From Brachybacterium avium (lineage in GTDB: Bacteria; Actinomycetota; Actinomycetes; Actinomycetales; Dermabacteraceae): a stretch of 64,000 nt of DNA. This document shows, one piece after another, positions 4,395 through 61,497 of the stretch (position 1 is the first letter of the stretch; each line of letters opens with the position of its first letter). The stretch spans positions 1,302,001 to 1,366,000 of the forward strand of contig NZ_CP022316.1 of the NCBI RefSeq assembly GCF_002216795.1, read 5' to 3'. Both the position numbers and the translations under genes were made by a program. The notes under the pieces were generated by a model. It had not been told where the DNA came from. It made no database searches and saw nothing but the letters and a program-made list of their open reading frames with translations.

Positions 4395-5468
4395 ATGTCT
4401 CGAGCTCCCTCCCCCGACCACTCGCACGGCCCTCACCCCGTGCCGCAGCGCACTCCACACCCCCCGCACGATCAGCACCCCGCGCACGCAGGCGACCGGC
4501 ACGAACACGCGCACGGACACGAGCACGCCGGGCTCTGGTCCCGCGTGCGCCACGCGCTGACCCCGCACAGCCACGACCACGGCGACGCGATCCGCACCGC
4601 CGAGGAGTCCAGTGCGATCGGCATCCGGGCGGCCTGGGTGAGCCTCGCCGGGATGGGGGCGACCGCACTGCTGCAGATCGGTATCGTCGCGCTCAGCGGT
4701 TCGGTCGCCCTGCTCGCCGACACCCTCCACAACCTCGGCCATCTGGCCACCACGATCCCGTTGATCATCGCCTTCCGCCTCGGGCTGCGCGCTCCCACCC
4801 GTCGCTTCAGCTACGGCTTCCGCCGCGCCGAGGATCTGGTGGGCCTCCTGATCGGGGCCGTGATCGCGGTGTCTGCGGGTCTGATCGTGTGGGAGTCGGT
4901 GCGCGCACTCACGACGGCCCGGGACATGACTCATCTGGTCTGGGTGCTCGCCGCCGCCCTCATCGGTGCCGCTGGGAACGAGCTGGTCGCGCGGTATCGG
5001 ATCCGCGCCGGCCGGAGGATCGGCTCCGCAGCGCTGATCGCGGAGGGCCAGCATGCCCGCACCGATGCGCTCACCTCCTTGGCCGTGGTGGTCGGGGTGG
5101 TCGGTGCCTGGCTCGGCGCGACCTGGATCGACCCGCTCATCGGCCTGCTCATCGCCGTGATGGTGGTGCTGGTGCTGATCAGCTCGATGCGCACCGTGAT
5201 CCATCGCCTGATGGATGGCGTCGGACCCGACACCCTGGACACCGTCGAGACGGCCGCCGCGGTGCCCGGCGTGCTCGAGGTGCGTGAGGCCCGGGCCCGC
5301 TGGATCGGGCATCGGCTCGAGGCCGAGGTCACGGTAGTCGTGGACCCGGGCCTCAGCGTCGGCCGCTCACAGCTGCTCATGGAGGAGGTGGAGACGCAGC
5401 TGCATCGCGCCCTGCCGCACCTGGACCGTGCCGGAGTACGGATCACCGCCGGCGCTGCTCGACCGTGA
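4395..5468 (+). CDS. Cation diffusion facilitator (CDF) metal exporter
   Basis: The 357-residue product starts with a His-rich cytoplasmic tail (about residues 1-58, many HxH and HxHxH runs), followed by six membrane spans and a C-terminal cytoplasmic ferredoxin-like domain. The span-5 metal motif HxxxD is present (QHARTDA). In span 2 the usual HNxGD of this subfamily reads HNLGH, i.e. HxxxH, which could change metal preference. CDF proteins exchange Zn, Co, Fe or Mn for protons to export the metal. The ATG chosen is 6 nt after TACATT, a leaderless promoter; longer upstream frame would overlap arsR. The divergent ArsR sensor with an alpha-5 Zn/Co site suggests zinc or cobalt export. Confidence 0.9.
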   Translation: MSRAPSPDHSHGPHPVPQRTPHPPHDQHPAHAGDRHEHAHGHEHAGLWSRVRHALTPHSHDHGDAIRTAEESSAIGIRAAWVSLAGMGATALLQIGIVALSGSVALLADTLHNLGHLATTIPLIIAFRLGLRAPTRRFSYGFRRAEDLVGLLIGAVIAVSAGLIVWESVRALTTARDMTHLVWVLAAALIGAAGNELVARYRIRAGRRIGSAALIAEGQHARTDALTSLAVVVGVVGAWLGATWIDPLIGLLIAVMVVLVLISSMRTVIHRLMDGVGPDTLDTVETAAAVPGVLEVREARARWIGHRLEAEVTVVVDPGLSVGRSQLLMEEVETQLHRALPHLDRAGVRITAGAARP

Positions 5469-12328: not shown

Positions 12329-14632
12329 ATGTCGAACAGCACACCGTCCGCCGACCAGTCCGCCAGCAGCGGCGGGCACCGCGACGGGGATCGTCGGATC
12401 CTGCTGACCGGCGTCACCGGGTTCCTGGGCCAGGCGGTCCTGCGGTCCCTCCTGGAGACCACCGAGAACACCCGGATCACGGCCGTCGTGCGCCCCAAGG
12501 GCTCCCTCAGCGGGCTCAAGCGTCTCGAGCAGCTGCTGCGCAAGCCGGTCTTCTCCTCCTGGGCCGACGCGATCAGCGAGAACGCACAGGACAGCCAGGA
12601 CGGACTGGACGGGAAGGCGGTCGTGAAGGCCGCGTTCGACGCCCGTGTCTCCGTGATCGAGGGCGACCTCACGGACATGCCCGCGATCGAGGACCCCTTC
12701 GACGTGGTCATCCACTCCGCGTCGTCGGTCTCCTTCGACCCGCCGATCGACGTCGCCTTCCGCACCAACGTCGGCGGGGCGCAGAACCTCTACGAGGCAC
12801 TGCTCGCCTCCGGCCAGGACCCGCACGTCATCCACGTCTCGACCGCCTATGTCGGCGGCATCGCCAAGGGCCTCCGCCAGGAGGGGTCGCTCCGGACCGA
12901 CGTCGACTGGCGCGCCGAGTACCAGGCCGCGCTCGACGCTCGCACCCGCGTCGATGCCGAGTCCCGTCGGCCCGAGACGCTGCGCTCCCAGATCCGCGGT
13001 GCGACGCTGCGCACCGGCCGCATGGGCCCCAAGGCCGTCGCCTCCGCGTCCGAGGAGGCCCGCCGCAACTGGGTCGACGAGCGCCTGGTCGACTTCGGCC
13101 GCACCCGCGCCCAGTCCGTGGGCTGGACCGACATCTACACCTTCACCAAGGCGATGGCGGAGCAGGTCGCCGAGGAGCTGTGGGCGGCGGGCGGCCACCG
13201 CGTCTCCTTCGTGCGGCCGTCGATCATCGAATCCGCCGTGCAGAACCCGTACCCGGGCTGGATCGACGGCTACAAGGTCGCCGACCCGCTGATCATGGCC
13301 TACGGCCGCGGCGCGCTGCCCGAGTTCCCGGGCCTCGCGGACTCGATCCTCGACGTCATCCCCGTGGATTTCGTGGTGAACGTGATCGTGGCCCTGGCCA
13401 CCCAGGACGTCTCCCGTCGCGGCGATGACGCCTACTACCAGGTGGTCTCCGGCGCCTCGAACCCGCTGCCCTTCCACGAGATGTTCACCGCCGTGCGCGA
13501 GTACTTCGTGGAGCACCCGCTCGAGGACGACGAGGGCAAGGCCATCGAGGTCCCCGCCTGGACCTTCCCGGCCGTGGAGATGGTCGAGCAGCGCTTCCGC
13601 GCCAAGGAGCTCGCCGCGAAGGCCGGGGCCACCGCCGTCGCCTACCTCCCCGCCACCAAGCGCACCCGGGCGTGGACGTCGGACCTGCACAAGGCGACGT
13701 CGGGCCTGACCACCCTGCGCATGTACATCGAGCTGTACCGCCAGTACACGAAGACGGAGATGGTCTTCGACGACGCCAACACGCGCGCCCTGCGCGACGA
13801 ATTGTCGGCCGATTTCCTCGCGAACCACGACTTCGACGTCACCGGCATCGACTGGAGCGAGTACTTCACGAAACAGCACCTCCCAGCCGTCACCGACCTC
13901 ACCAAGGCGTACTCGCGGGCGAAGTCCGCCCAGCGCAAGCGCTCCGCGCGCCCCGCGCCGGAGCTCAAGCAGAACGAGAACGCTCTGGCCGTCTTCGACC
14001 TCGACGGCACCGTGCTCGCCACGAACATCGTCCAGCAGTACTTCGCGGTGGTCCGCGCGACGCGTCCGCGCCGGTCCTGGCCCGGTGAGATCGGTGGCCT
14101 GCTCGCCGCCGTCCCCGGGTATCTGCGGGCGGAGAAGCGGGACCGCTCCGAGCTGATCCGCACGGTCAACCGCCGTTACAAGGGCTACCGCGGCGACGAG
14201 CTGCGCTCCCTCATGCAGGGTGAGGCCGGGCGCCGCATCCGCGCGTCGGTCCGCCCCGAGGCCCTCGAGACGATCGAGCGCCACCGCGCCGCCGGGCACC
14301 GGACCGTGCTCGTCAGCGGCGCGCTCGACGTGCTCGTGGAGCCGCTCGCGGACCTGTTCGACGAGGTCGTCGCCACCCACATGGACGAGGACTCCTCCGG
14401 GGTCATGACCGGCTACCTGGCCACTCCCCCGCTGGTCGACGAGGCCCGCGCGAACTGGCTGAGCAAGTACGCCGATCTGCACAGCGCGGACCTCGCCGCC
14501 TCCTACGGCTACGGCGACTCCCACGCCGACGCCTCCTGGCTCGAGCTGGTCGGCACCCCCGCTGCCGTGTCCCCGGACCTGGGCCTGTACGGCGTGGCGA
14601 AGAAGAAGCGCTGGCAGATCCTGGAGTGGTGA
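12329..14632 (+). CDS. Fatty acyl-CoA reductase-like (male-sterility type) protein fused to a HAD-IB phosphatase
   Basis: The 767-residue product has two enzymes in one chain. Residues about 20-400 form an extended-SDR/male-sterility domain with the NADP loop TGVTGFLG and the catalytic Tyr270-x3-Lys274 pair (YTFTK). Residues about 550-767 form a HAD-IB phosphatase (nucleophile Asp557 in FDLDGTV, VLVSGA motif, YGDSHAD with the Mg-binding Asp). The first domain type reduces fatty acyl-CoA to aldehyde or alcohol; the HAD-IB type often removes phosphate from glycerolipid or serine phosphates. GAGGGAA precedes the ATG. It is divergent from the SDR-acyltransferase-AGPS operon and would supply the fatty alcohol for an ether bond. 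Full length and uninterrupted. Confidence 0.85.
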   Translation: MSNSTPSADQSASSGGHRDGDRRILLTGVTGFLGQAVLRSLLETTENTRITAVVRPKGSLSGLKRLEQLLRKPVFSSWADAISENAQDSQDGLDGKAVVKAAFDARVSVIEGDLTDMPAIEDPFDVVIHSASSVSFDPPIDVAFRTNVGGAQNLYEALLASGQDPHVIHVSTAYVGGIAKGLRQEGSLRTDVDWRAEYQAALDARTRVDAESRRPETLRSQIRGATLRTGRMGPKAVASASEEARRNWVDERLVDFGRTRAQSVGWTDIYTFTKAMAEQVAEELWAAGGHRVSFVRPSIIESAVQNPYPGWIDGYKVADPLIMAYGRGALPEFPGLADSILDVIPVDFVVNVIVALATQDVSRRGDDAYYQVVSGASNPLPFHEMFTAVREYFVEHPLEDDEGKAIEVPAWTFPAVEMVEQRFRAKELAAKAGATAVAYLPATKRTRAWTSDLHKATSGLTTLRMYIELYRQYTKTEMVFDDANTRALRDELSADFLANHDFDVTGIDWSEYFTKQHLPAVTDLTKAYSRAKSAQRKRSARPAPELKQNENALAVFDLDGTVLATNIVQQYFAVVRATRPRRSWPGEIGGLLAAVPGYLRAEKRDRSELIRTVNRRYKGYRGDELRSLMQGEAGRRIRASVRPEALETIERHRAAGHRTVLVSGALDVLVEPLADLFDEVVATHMDEDSSGVMTGYLATPPLVDEARANWLSKYADLHSADLAASYGYGDSHADASWLELVGTPAAVSPDLGLYGVAKKKRWQILEW

Positions 14633-14676
14633 CGCTGCGCAGCCGCTGAAGCCCGGGTGGCCGGGCCGGATAGTCG

Positions 14677-14712
14677 CCTGGCCCGGGGTGGTGACCTGGC
14701 CCGGGGTGGTGG
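14677..14712. repeat. Tandem repeat, 18 bp x 2, upstream of palindrome A1
   Basis: CCTGGCCCGGGGTGGTG followed by A or G occurs twice back to back (14677-14694 and 14695-14712). A partial third unit is visible just to the left. It ends directly at the first base of the 77-nt palindrome at 14713. Confidence 0.75.
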
Positions 14713-14789
14713 CCACCAGAACTTTGACGTATACGGGCGTTGAACGGCGTATATGCGTTCAACACTGATATACGTCAGTCTCCTGGTGG
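14713..14789. repeat. 77-nt palindromic element, family A copy 1
   Basis: An intergenic element that folds into one long three-tier hairpin: CCACCAG (14713-14719) pairs with CTGGTGG (14783-14789); TGACGTATA (14725-14733) pairs with TATACGTCA (14769-14777); GTTGAACG (14739-14746) pairs with CGTTCAAC (14756-14763), leaving a 9-nt loop. The same outer arms, the same TGAACG/CGTTCA inner arms and the same total length and spacing recur at 15859-15935 and 61421-61497. This copy and copy 2 bracket the DUF559-like gene at 14874. Confidence 0.85.
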
Positions 14790-14873
14790 TCGACCGTTCC
14801 TCCCCACCCCTGGGCTGTCCACATCAGCAACGCTCTCCTCCCGCCGCGTTCCGTCCGCGCCGAGACTCGGAGC

Positions 14874-15827
14874 ATGTACGGCCCCAGTCACGTGATCCTG
14901 CCGGCGAGCGCGGACCGCCCTTACCGCCCGTCCAGTCAACCGACCCGCCGACCGCCCGGCGCCCTCCATCTCACCCCTGAGCAGCTCGGCGTCGCCCGGC
15001 GCCACGAGATCTCCGCCCTCGGCTTGACGCAGTGGACCATGCGCGGCGCCCTGGAGCGCGGCGAGCTGCGGCGCATCGCCCGCGGCTGGACCGCACTGCC
15101 CACCGCCGACGCTGCCGTGGTTCGGGCCCTGACCGCCGGGTATCGGCTCACCTGCGTGGACGCGGCGCGGCTGCATGGTCTTTGGATCCCGGAGGACACC
15201 TCCCCCGAGCGTCACCATCTGCACGTCTATCGCGGCGGCAGCGGAGGCTCCCTTCCGCCGCGGATGAAACAGCACTCCCCGCGCGGCAGATCCTGGCCGG
15301 AGACGGACGCAGTCGCCTCGCTTCCGCTCGCGCTCGCCCACTCCCTCCGGTGCTGCAGCGGCGAGACCTCCGCGATCCTGCTCGAGTCCGCGATGCAACG
15401 CGGGCTCCTCTCCCCTGCCGAGGTGCAGCAGATCCTGGAGGCTGCCCCCGCCGCGGTCCGCTCCCGGATCGGCACGGTCTCCTCCGCGAGCGACTCCGGC
15501 TCGGAGACGAGGGTGGTCCGGTGGCTGCGACGCCGGAAGTTCCATGTCGAGCAGCAGGTGCATGTGGAGGGCGTGGGGTTCCTCGACGCCTACGTCGGCG
15601 GGCTCTTCCTGGAGATCGACGGCAAGGAGTTCCATTCCGGCGAGAGCGCCTTCGGCCGGGACCGTCGCAGGGATCTGCACGCCATCCGGCACGGGCTGCA
15701 GGTGCTCCGCATCAGCTATGACCAGGTCTGGCACCACTGGCCCGCCACCCAGCAGAACATCCTCCGCACCATCGCGGAGGTCGGCGGATTCGGCCGGCGG
15801 AAAGTGGCACAGCTGGCCGCCGCCTGA
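14874..15827 (+). CDS. DUF559/Vsr-like nuclease-domain protein with N-terminal AbiEi-type winged helix (paralogue 1)
   Basis: The 317-residue product has an N-terminal winged-helix-like part (about 35-85, RRHEISALGLTQWTMRGALERG resembles AbiEi-type antitoxin domains; motif quoted only in part here), a middle helical part and a C-terminal PD-(D/E)XK-like nuclease fold. Likely active-site residues are Glu211, Asp238, Glu247 and Lys251 (FLDAYV, then LEIDGK), followed by a basic GRDRRRD helix. Proteins of this kind are abundant in actinobacteria, and databases name them DUF559 or AbiEi-domain proteins; no function is established. It stands alone, 85 bp after palindrome A1 and 32 bp before A2. TGTCCACA lies 51 bp upstream of the start. 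No toxin partner gene is adjacent. Confidence 0.75.
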   Translation: MYGPSHVILPASADRPYRPSSQPTRRPPGALHLTPEQLGVARRHEISALGLTQWTMRGALERGELRRIARGWTALPTADAAVVRALTAGYRLTCVDAARLHGLWIPEDTSPERHHLHVYRGGSGGSLPPRMKQHSPRGRSWPETDAVASLPLALAHSLRCCSGETSAILLESAMQRGLLSPAEVQQILEAAPAAVRSRIGTVSSASDSGSETRVVRWLRRRKFHVEQQVHVEGVGFLDAYVGGLFLEIDGKEFHSGESAFGRDRRRDLHAIRHGLQVLRISYDQVWHHWPATQQNILRTIAEVGGFGRRKVAQLAAA

Positions 15828-15858
15828 GCAGCCCCGAGGGCACCTCACGGTTTCGACG

Positions 15859-15935
15859 CCACCAGAACTTTGAAGCAGGTGAGGTCTGAACGCTCCACAG
15901 CCGTTCAAACGTCGTAGACGGCAGGAATCTGGTGG
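15859..15935. repeat. 77-nt palindromic element, family A copy 2
   Basis: Same length and geometry as copy 1: outer arms CCACCAGA (15859-15866) and TCTGGTGG (15928-15935), inner arms TGAACG (15887-15892) and CGTTCA (15902-15907) with a 9-nt loop. The middle arm of copy 1 is not kept. It lies 32 bp after the stop of the DUF559-like gene, in the convergent gap before the amino-acid ABC transporter. Confidence 0.85.
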
Positions 15936-16029
15936 GCAAGCGCGAGCATGCGGGGTCAGGGCAGGGCAGGGCAGGAGCGCTTTGGGGTCGAGCACGCTGC
16001 GGCCGGGCGGGTGCACTGCCACCCCGGGA

Positions 16030-16857
16030 TCACAGCACTGAGGCGAGGAAGCCTTGCAGCCGCTCGGACTCGGGGTGGTCGATGACCTGCTCGGGGGTGC
16101 CGCGTTCGAGGATGCGGCCCTCGTCCATGAACACCACCTGGTCGGCGACCTCGCGGGCGAAGCCCATCTCATGGGTGACCACGACCATGGTCATGCCGTC
16201 GGCCGCGAGGTCCTTGAGCACGGCGAGCACCTCGGAGACCAGCTCCGGGTCCAGGGCGCTGGTCGGCTCATCGAAGAGCATCAGCTCGGGGTCCATCGCC
16301 AGCGCCCGCGCGATCGCGACCCGCTGCTGCTGCCCGCCGGAGAGCTCCGAGGGGTAGTGGTCTGCGCGTTCGGCCAGGCCCACCCGTTCCAGCAGGGTGC
16401 GTGCCTTCTGCTCAGCGGCGGCCTTGGGCAGCCCGCGCACCTGCACAGGCGCCTCCATCACGTTGCCGAGCGCCGTGAGGTGCGGGAACAGGTGGAAGCG
16501 CTGGAAGACCATGCCGATGCGGGAGCGCTGGGCGGCGATCTGGGCGGAGGGAAGCTTCTGCCAGCGACCGTCGGGCAGCGGATCGCTCTGGTAGCCCTGC
16601 ACCTCGCCGTCGATGAGGACGCGCCCGGCAGTGGGCTCCTCGAGCTGATTGATGCAGCGCAGCAGGGTGGACTTGCCGGAGCCGGAGGGACCCACCAGCA
16701 CGGCCACCTCGCCGGCGCGCACGGTGAGGTCGCAGGCCTTCAGCACGTGCAGGTCACCGAAGGACTTGTGGACCGCCTCGACCTCGATGACGGGACGGGG
16801 CGGGGTGGCGGGAGTCCAGTCGGTGCCGGGCACGGGGTTCTCAGGGGTCTGGGTCAT
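16030..16857 (-). CDS. Polar amino-acid ABC transporter ATPase (GlnQ type)
   Basis: The 275-residue product has Walker [10 protein letters not shown], the LSGGQQQR signature, Walker [13 protein letters not shown] and the VTHEMGFA switch-His region typical of polar amino-acid importers. It powers uptake with the permease and binding protein encoded immediately upstream. The ATG overlaps the permease stop by one base (TGATG). It is the last gene of a binding protein-permease-ATPase operon. Substrate specificity is not visible from the ATPase. Confidence 0.95.
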
Positions 16858-61420: not shown

Positions 61421-61497
61421 CCACCGGAAACCTGCCGTATATGGGCTTTGAACGCCTCTGCAGCGTTCAGCGCTCACTGACAACAGATTTCTGGTGG
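61421..61497. repeat. 77-nt palindromic element, family A copy 3 (solo)
   Basis: Same 77-nt geometry as copies 1 and 2. CCACCGGAAA (61421-61430) pairs with TTTCTGGTGG (61488-61497) over 10 bp with one G-U; TGAACG (61449-61454) pairs with CGTTCA (61464-61469) around a 9-nt loop. It lies between gabD and the next gene, with no DUF559-like gene beside it. Its right end is 3 bp before the -10 box TAGCGT of the gene at 61512. Confidence 0.83.

Follow-up and report, generated by a model that had tools for sequence, protein, structure and literature searches.

We identified a lone nuclease gene in Brachybacterium avium that is enclosed by two copies of a 77-nt palindrome, and related genes in other species that are enclosed by palindromes of other sequences. 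We propose, with a probability of about 0.55, that these belong to a two-part system, wherein each AbiEi/Vsr-like nuclease has its own cognate family of fixed-length palindromes, spread and homogenised via the enzyme. Our data demonstrate that palindromes bracket these genes, that palindrome sequence is paired with nuclease subfamily, that the element keeps a fixed geometry and is dispersed in the genome, and that the protein is under purifying selection. Matching palindromes that change together with the protein suggest an undescribed enzyme-repeat partnership; no description of such a nuclease-palindrome system was found among open-licence PMC papers searched by title and abstract opening.

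The first-pass annotation of this DNA had reported a palindromic unit tied to the Vsr/DUF559-type nuclease that it flanks, comparable to REP elements and their RAYT transposases. This view is supported in part, its core strongly so by the comparison of species and paralogs. The flanked protein may recognise the palindrome, or the palindrome may depend on it.

Architecture of the element and of the enclosed nuclease

The window, the whole 64-kb stretch that was analysed (71% GC, from a genome of 3.57 Mb in 3 contigs), contains three copies of the element, each 77 nt long and without assigned strand. Copy A1 (14713..14789; 74.9 bits with R1, a covariance model built from 11 copies) lies 80 nt past the stop of a 767-aa gene and 84 nt ahead of the nuclease ORF. 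Copy A2 (15859..15935; 63.6 bits) lies 31 nt past the nuclease gene stop in the spacer between convergent genes, and copy A3 (61421..61497; 73.6 bits) lies in the spacer of two tandem genes, with no DUF559 gene nearby. The coordinates, exact length and CCACCAG/CTGGTGG outer arms first described for A1 and A2 were all reproduced, as were the TGAACG/CGTTCA inner arms of both copies at offsets 29-34 and 44-49, with their 9-nt loop. CCACCAGAACTTTGA is present in the window as two exact matches; allowing up to 3 mismatches brings the number to 3, against a shuffle mean of 0.35 (2/100 shuffles reach 3).

The claim that structure rather than sequence is conserved did not stand, as each half-site holds two strongly conserved sequence blocks. 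In R1 these are an outer block (CCACCAGA..CTG) and an inner block (TGAACG), arranged around a centre of ~9 nt, and the stretches between the blocks are only partly complementary. At these variable arm positions, self-complementarity within a copy was 0.56 versus 0.44 in shuffled arms for R1 (0/2000 shuffles; 77-nt copies alone, 30 distinct, leaving out cross-hits from G007, G025 and G030:C61) and 0.60 versus 0.44 for R3, a model built from five genomes (0/2000). For R2, built from genomes G007 and G014, the difference was not significant (0.49 versus 0.46; 394/2000). As single-stranded DNA, A1 (z -5.2) and A3 (z -3.7) fold far better than their shuffles, and A2 weakly so (z -1.8). Element length is fixed within a family and ranges from 73 to 78 nt over the families studied, and in the alignments of R1-R3 the symmetry extends to both ends, whose sequences are specific to the family.

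No target-site duplication was recognised by eye at the copies inspected, an Rfam scan of window positions 14000-16500 gave no match, and neither did a BLAST search of one palindrome copy against distant plasmids. Short tandem repeats, with units of ~18-25 nt by eye, lie directly beside elements at window positions 14668-14703 and at loci L060 (6750-6900) and L059 (3046-3130). At the latter two, the units include the motif from the palindrome's outer end (TCTGGTGG / CGGTGG), as though one end of the element had been amplified.

The gene between A1 and A2 (14874..15827, plus strand) encodes a protein of 317 aa related to the Pfam family MTES_1575. Residues 33-124 (14970..15245, plus strand) match AbiEi in PADLOC (E 2.2e-4), and residues 203-299 (15480..15770, plus strand) are assigned to a Vsr/EDxHD-like nuclease by profile, alignment and fold. 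An AlphaFold model (mean pLDDT 79) matched two structures in Foldseek searches, the AbiEi antitoxin 6y8q (E 8e-4) and the catalytic domain of the homing endonuclease I-Bth0305I, 3r3p (E 4e-3, TMt 0.75), the latter also found by sequence profile (E 0.0017, profile positions 185-255). Because the profile matches fall at 33-124 and 185-255, we assign 6y8q to the N-terminal part and 3r3p to the C-terminal part. In the model, an AbiEi-like winged helix is linked to a nuclease fold of the Vsr/I-Bth0305I (homing) type, and the C-terminal domain, going by the 3r3p match, is presumably of the EDxHD type.

Profile, fold and conserved catalytic residues place the protein in the Vsr/MTES_1575 superfamily, with the window protein itself scoring below the Pfam cut-offs (27.1 bits against 38.2 for MTES_1575; a weaker 14.2 against 20.6 for DUF559). 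Among 23 relatives scanned at E<=0.1, all 23 matched MTES_1575, 22 matched DUF559 and 8 matched AbiEi_4. The residues E211, D238, E247xD249, H254 and D263-R-x-R-D267 are invariant across 15 aligned relatives, and matching acidic and histidine residues are likewise invariant in the second set of 23. The nuclease is under purifying selection: dN/dS was 0.16-0.27 in 7 of 8 pairs, which include the palindrome-free pair G016/G005 (0.25), and 0.55 in the remaining one.

The gene has as neighbours in the window an NAD-binding/HAD fusion and a protein that from its sequence looks like an ABC ATPase. Nine of the 11 named relatives are from Brachybacterium, and the tblastn matches were 1 phage record (29%) and 4 plasmid records (30-33%). 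NCBIfam gave weak, sub-threshold matches, and three proteins searched against PHROGs matched 0, 1 (E 0.06) and 0 families. A PF18741 search over the class returned mostly open frames of >1000 codons and was of no use for small proteins.

Palindrome pairs at DUF559 genes across species

Similar palindromes on both sides were found at 25 of 50 DUF559 loci (48 from the genus, 2 from outside) but at 1 of 289 control genes, the latter being the genes of 20 arbitrary 20-kb stretches from 13 genus genomes. A second test required a palindrome close to the gene plus another like it in the flanks (score >=30). Within the genus, 34/48 DUF559 loci passed, against 3/273 controls, and 22 previously unused loci gave 13/22, or 47/70 in total; these counts are inflated, as close relatives in the locus set are not independent. 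Copies are in excess at DUF559 genes. The remaining loci, 14/48 (score <28) and 9/22 (score <30), had no clear second copy. The 70 loci come from 72 genus hits, omitting G032:C168 at a contig end and one piece of a G017 pseudogene. Outside the genus, 10/30 loci passed, against 0/220 controls, and the stricter two-sided test gave 4/28, which indicates that bracketing is weaker or more decayed there.

The single control that passed the two-sided test is a gene of G008 for an MgtE-like magnesium transporter, as read from sequence. Its matched pair (L166, 894-957 and 2633-2696) has yet another sequence. Palindromes of other sequences were likewise seen at many loci in a scan of DUF559 genes, among them those of distant paralogs (33-41% identical) and of Desertihabitans aurantiacus; at some others, one palindrome or none was present. 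Further DUF559 loci in several genomes (L365, L372, L376-L379, L381 and L382) apparently form a second subfamily, whose palindromes are mostly distantly like R3.

The sequence of the palindromes follows that of the protein. Over 32 bracketed loci (30 with a matched pair, plus G000 and G037 placed by hand), protein identity correlated with palindrome similarity (Mantel rho 0.35; 0/2000 permutations). Partial Mantel tests by protein half showed that both carry some weight (0.16 and 0.20) and did not decide which half holds specificity. In 7/7 pairs of bracketed paralogs from the same genome the palindromes were unrelated (similarity 8-11; background 9.3). R3 brackets the DUF559 gene in G037, G023, G020, G030, G013 and G009, and G007 carries an ortholog of the window protein (57% identical) that is bracketed too, by a different palindrome (ACGAACTTCTTG..., 73 nt). 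The enzyme/palindrome pairs are called cognate here in a putative sense, on the strength of this pairing, and the co-variation could partly reflect plain co-inheritance of the gene and its flanks.

Comparison of immediate neighbour genes (>=55% identity) bears on two patterns that the first-pass annotation had weighed against its own idea, namely scattering without a link to DUF559 genes and conservation at orthologous positions. Within one palindrome family, both were half borne out. In the source genome, G000, 12 of the 14 copies adjoin neither of its two DUF559 hits, and 11 of the 14 have a neighbour gene in common with a copy of the same family in G037. Across a family switch, from the 14 copies of G000 to 23 of the 24 in G007, neighbours match at the DUF559 locus alone. 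Positions are therefore inherited as long as the family stays the same, and when it switches, the nuclease is the constant. Within a family, most positions are common to several species, and so there was no sign of recent hopping.

Dispersal, locus history and alternative explanations

A genome search with R1 found the element at 14 places in the source genome, without counting one further partial match (E 0.18); with the third copy in the window, this marks the element as a dispersed repeat. R1 matches at E<=0.001 were present in 7/38 genus genomes, strong in G000, G030, G037, G027 and G031 and weak in G007 and G025. R2 gave 48 two-strand matches (24 places) in G007, and 23/23 that were re-examined span exactly 73 nt. 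Two-strand R3 matches numbered 58 in G009, 53 in G013, 43 in G020, 41 in G025 and 34 in G023, corresponding to up to ~29 places. Pairs with a gap <5 kb were in excess in G007 (8 versus 0.76 expected; maximum 5 in 5000 simulations), and in G000 and G037 there were 3 each, versus 0.27 and 0.17, a number that the simulated maximum also reached.

Besides the nuclease, copies enclose ordinary genes and operons. R1 palindromes lie on both sides of a 214-aa reductase-like gene (L059, L064) and of an ABC-transporter operon (L060, L066), both read from sequence and each in two species. In G020, two near-identical R3 copies (L357, 1738-1811 and 1900-1973) lie 162 bp apart within a tandem duplication.

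The frequent bracketing of operons raises the question of whether the protein is mainly an AbiEi-like regulator, with the palindromes as its binding sites for autoregulation and for a small regulon or transcription boundaries, and with a nuclease domain that serves another purpose. We consider this unlikely, while noting that antitoxins of the AbiEi type bind inverted repeats within the promoters of their own genes, as described in the available part of PMC7319586, and that the fixed geometry of the element, with a pair of conserved blocks in each half-site, resembles a protein footprint. Operators should favour promoter-bearing spacers, but the 36 spacer copies from G000 and G007 (36/38 places, leaving out L353:1928, which is inside a called ORF, and G007 2742035) were 21 tandem, 11 convergent and 4 divergent, against 95, 23 and 46 control spacers. 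That divergent spacers are avoided speaks against simple operators, as do the second copy downstream of the gene and the invariance of the nuclease residues among aligned relatives.

The main locus, downstream of the 767-aa gene, was compared at 30 loci. A full-length or nearly full DUF559 relative lies within 1.5 kb at 9 of them, and G033 has a partial one. Empty sites, which the first-pass annotation had proposed to look for in sister strains, exist in G031 and G024, where ~33 and 18 bp separate the flanking genes and nuclease and palindromes are absent together. In G034, a strong palindrome follows the stop of the 767-aa homolog (L229, nt 110-177), although the site yielded no DUF559 gene. 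Between G013 and the genomes G030, G037 and G009 (L118/L279 versus L182, L197 and L291), the nuclease gene with its two palindromes is inverted as one segment with respect to the genes around it. Compared with B. paraconglomeratum (L129, 5963-7799), Brachybacterium sp. EE-P12 (L105, 2435-2443) is missing ~1.8 kb with a transporter-like gene and the larger part of a TetR-like one (both read from sequence), a difference that starts within ~10 bp of the downstream palindrome and that we take as a deletion in the latter. Both inversion and loss fit breakage or recombination at palindromes and do not indicate the responsible enzyme.

A homing-type selfish gene could also leave such traces, if the nuclease cut palindromes and the break then received a copy of the nuclease gene together with a palindrome from its flank. 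The inverted segment, the homing endonuclease as closest solved nuclease fold and the position of the nearest relatives (47-50% identical) away from the main locus in G004, G011 and G017 would suit this explanation. We nevertheless regard it as distinctly improbable: one bracketed gene accompanies each palindrome family examined, the dispersed copies inspected adjoin other genes, and both flanking palindromes are complete rather than halves of one split target. A census of the genus, with <=5 DUF559 hits in any genome, showed no multicopy spread of one gene.

The pairing also fails in places. No palindromes were detected at the orthologs of G016 and G005 (55% identical), and a repeat search of these loci (L099/L124) without the palindrome requirement gave nothing clear; its long low-identity alignments are uninformative because scoring runs on in high-GC DNA. 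Among 14 genomes with >=10 R3 hits, the DUF559 gene is R3-bracketed in the 6 named above and has R3 on just one side in G003. The DUF559 loci examined in G011, G012, G015, G017, G025 and G027 yielded no strong R3 copy; the G011 locus has its own pair of related palindromes (41-43 bits). G026 (88% complete, 750 contigs) has R3 copies and yielded no DUF559 hit, and G009 keeps ~29 R3 copies though its DUF559 gene has an internal stop. As the R3 model also matched weaker copies (28-54 bits) at another DUF559 gene, one with palindromes of a similar kind, in G001, G003, G009, G010, G011, G020 and G034, part of the R3 hits in these seven genomes may belong to that relative. The G027 ortholog is split over two frames, and a long GCCGGT-type hexamer tract lies shortly past it (L063, ~4950-5040).

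Genomes that hold a family with no bracketed nuclease seen, and the many copies away from DUF559 genes, would be expected of a MITE- or REP-type repeat that is moved or maintained by some other enzyme, with DUF559 loci as favoured neighbourhoods. We think this very unlikely, since many unrelated palindrome families have a DUF559 neighbour in common and paralogs within one genome carry different palindromes.

Ordinary bidirectional terminators conserved at gene ends deserve hardly any credence: the copies are mostly intergenic, enriched in convergent spacers and at orthologous positions among close species, and several fold as strong hairpins, but the sequence blocks and the exact element length hold throughout the genome, the family sequence changes when the nuclease subfamily does, matched copies are found on the upstream side and not just downstream, and DUF559 genes have an excess of copies. 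The readings "terminator only" and "no link to DUF559", first suggested by the 12/14 copies elsewhere and the positions shared with sister species, were abandoned once the same gene turned out to have different palindromes, first in G007 and then at many other DUF559 loci.

A proposed enzyme-repeat partnership and known systems

Dispersed bacterial palindromes are a long-standing puzzle, and their best-described enzyme partner is the HUH-type RAYT. In the two-part system that we propose, one nuclease gene would serve each palindrome family, with two element copies enclosing the gene and ~10-30 more dispersed, nearly all in intergenic spacers. Two protomers may bind, one per half-site (an outer block of ~12 nt and an inner block of 6-8 nt), and the nuclease may nick or cut at the palindrome. 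Repair or recombination would then copy the element into new spacers and keep the copies alike. As copying and homogenisation would run through the nuclease, element and enzyme would evolve together, and an unrelated enzyme would play the role thought to be that of RAYT transposases on REPs. If true, a second unrelated nuclease is tied to its own palindrome families, so that such partnerships evolve repeatedly, and many small actinobacterial DUF559 proteins of unknown function gain a role. Dozens of natural enzyme/target pairs with different sequence specificities would then be open to direct testing.

The N-terminal winged-helix fold is shared with the AbiEi antitoxin of the type IV toxin-antitoxin system AbiE, which binds inverted repeats according to the accessible text of PMC7319586. 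Here, by contrast, a nuclease replaces the C-terminal antitoxicity domain, the gene stands alone and the sites are many and dispersed. No DUF1814 (AbiEii) toxin gene was found among the window neighbours, and the locus is not an AbiE toxin-antitoxin pair. The C-terminal nuclease fold, with its invariant acidic and histidine residues, is that of I-Bth0305I (3r3p, Vsr-like/EDxHD), but no intron or intein was seen here and the gene is linked to dispersed palindromes. The founder of MTES_1575, with a Vsr-type REase domain, is a fusion of >2000 residues in the portion of PMC3710099 available, whereas the window protein is small and has two domains. As in IS200/IS605 elements, described in part of PMC8266576, a coding sequence is bordered by palindromes; the enzyme is unrelated, the window's gene keeps to a single locus across about a dozen species, and multiple gene copies per family were not seen. 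MITEs are short non-autonomous elements with terminal inverted repeats and a target-site duplication; here the termini are symmetric, inspection by eye showed no such duplication, and no empty site of a solo copy was obtained.

The closest likeness in organisation is to the REPtron, in which, according to excerpts from PMC8266576, a usually single-copy, housekeeping-like RAYT/TnpAREP gene is bordered by palindromes, cognate palindromes are dispersed in intergenic spacers, and enzyme groups co-evolve with palindromes. The nuclease gene is flanked by putatively cognate palindromes as well, in the genus proportions given above, and 36 of the 37 G000 and G007 copies inspected lie outside called genes, the exception being G007 L353:1928-2000. 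Differences lie in the protein, which is of AbiEi and Vsr type: in Pfam (E<=0.1), two sets of relatives, 15 and 23 proteins, matched MTES_1575, DUF559, AbiEi and a few weak others, and no HUH/Y1 domain. The elements differ too, with 73-78 nt and ~10-30 copies compared with 20-50 nt and hundreds of copies for REPs in the same excerpts, which also give most REPs a GTAG tag; aligned families R1-R3 have no GTAG-type terminal tag. Taken together, the system resembles a REPtron, but without two of its defining features, the HUH domain and the terminal tag, it is not a RAYT system. We give an even chance to its being an independently evolved counterpart of the REPtron, formed by widespread and unnoticed actinobacterial AbiEi-Vsr nucleases that propagate their own palindromes with mutually exclusive specificities.
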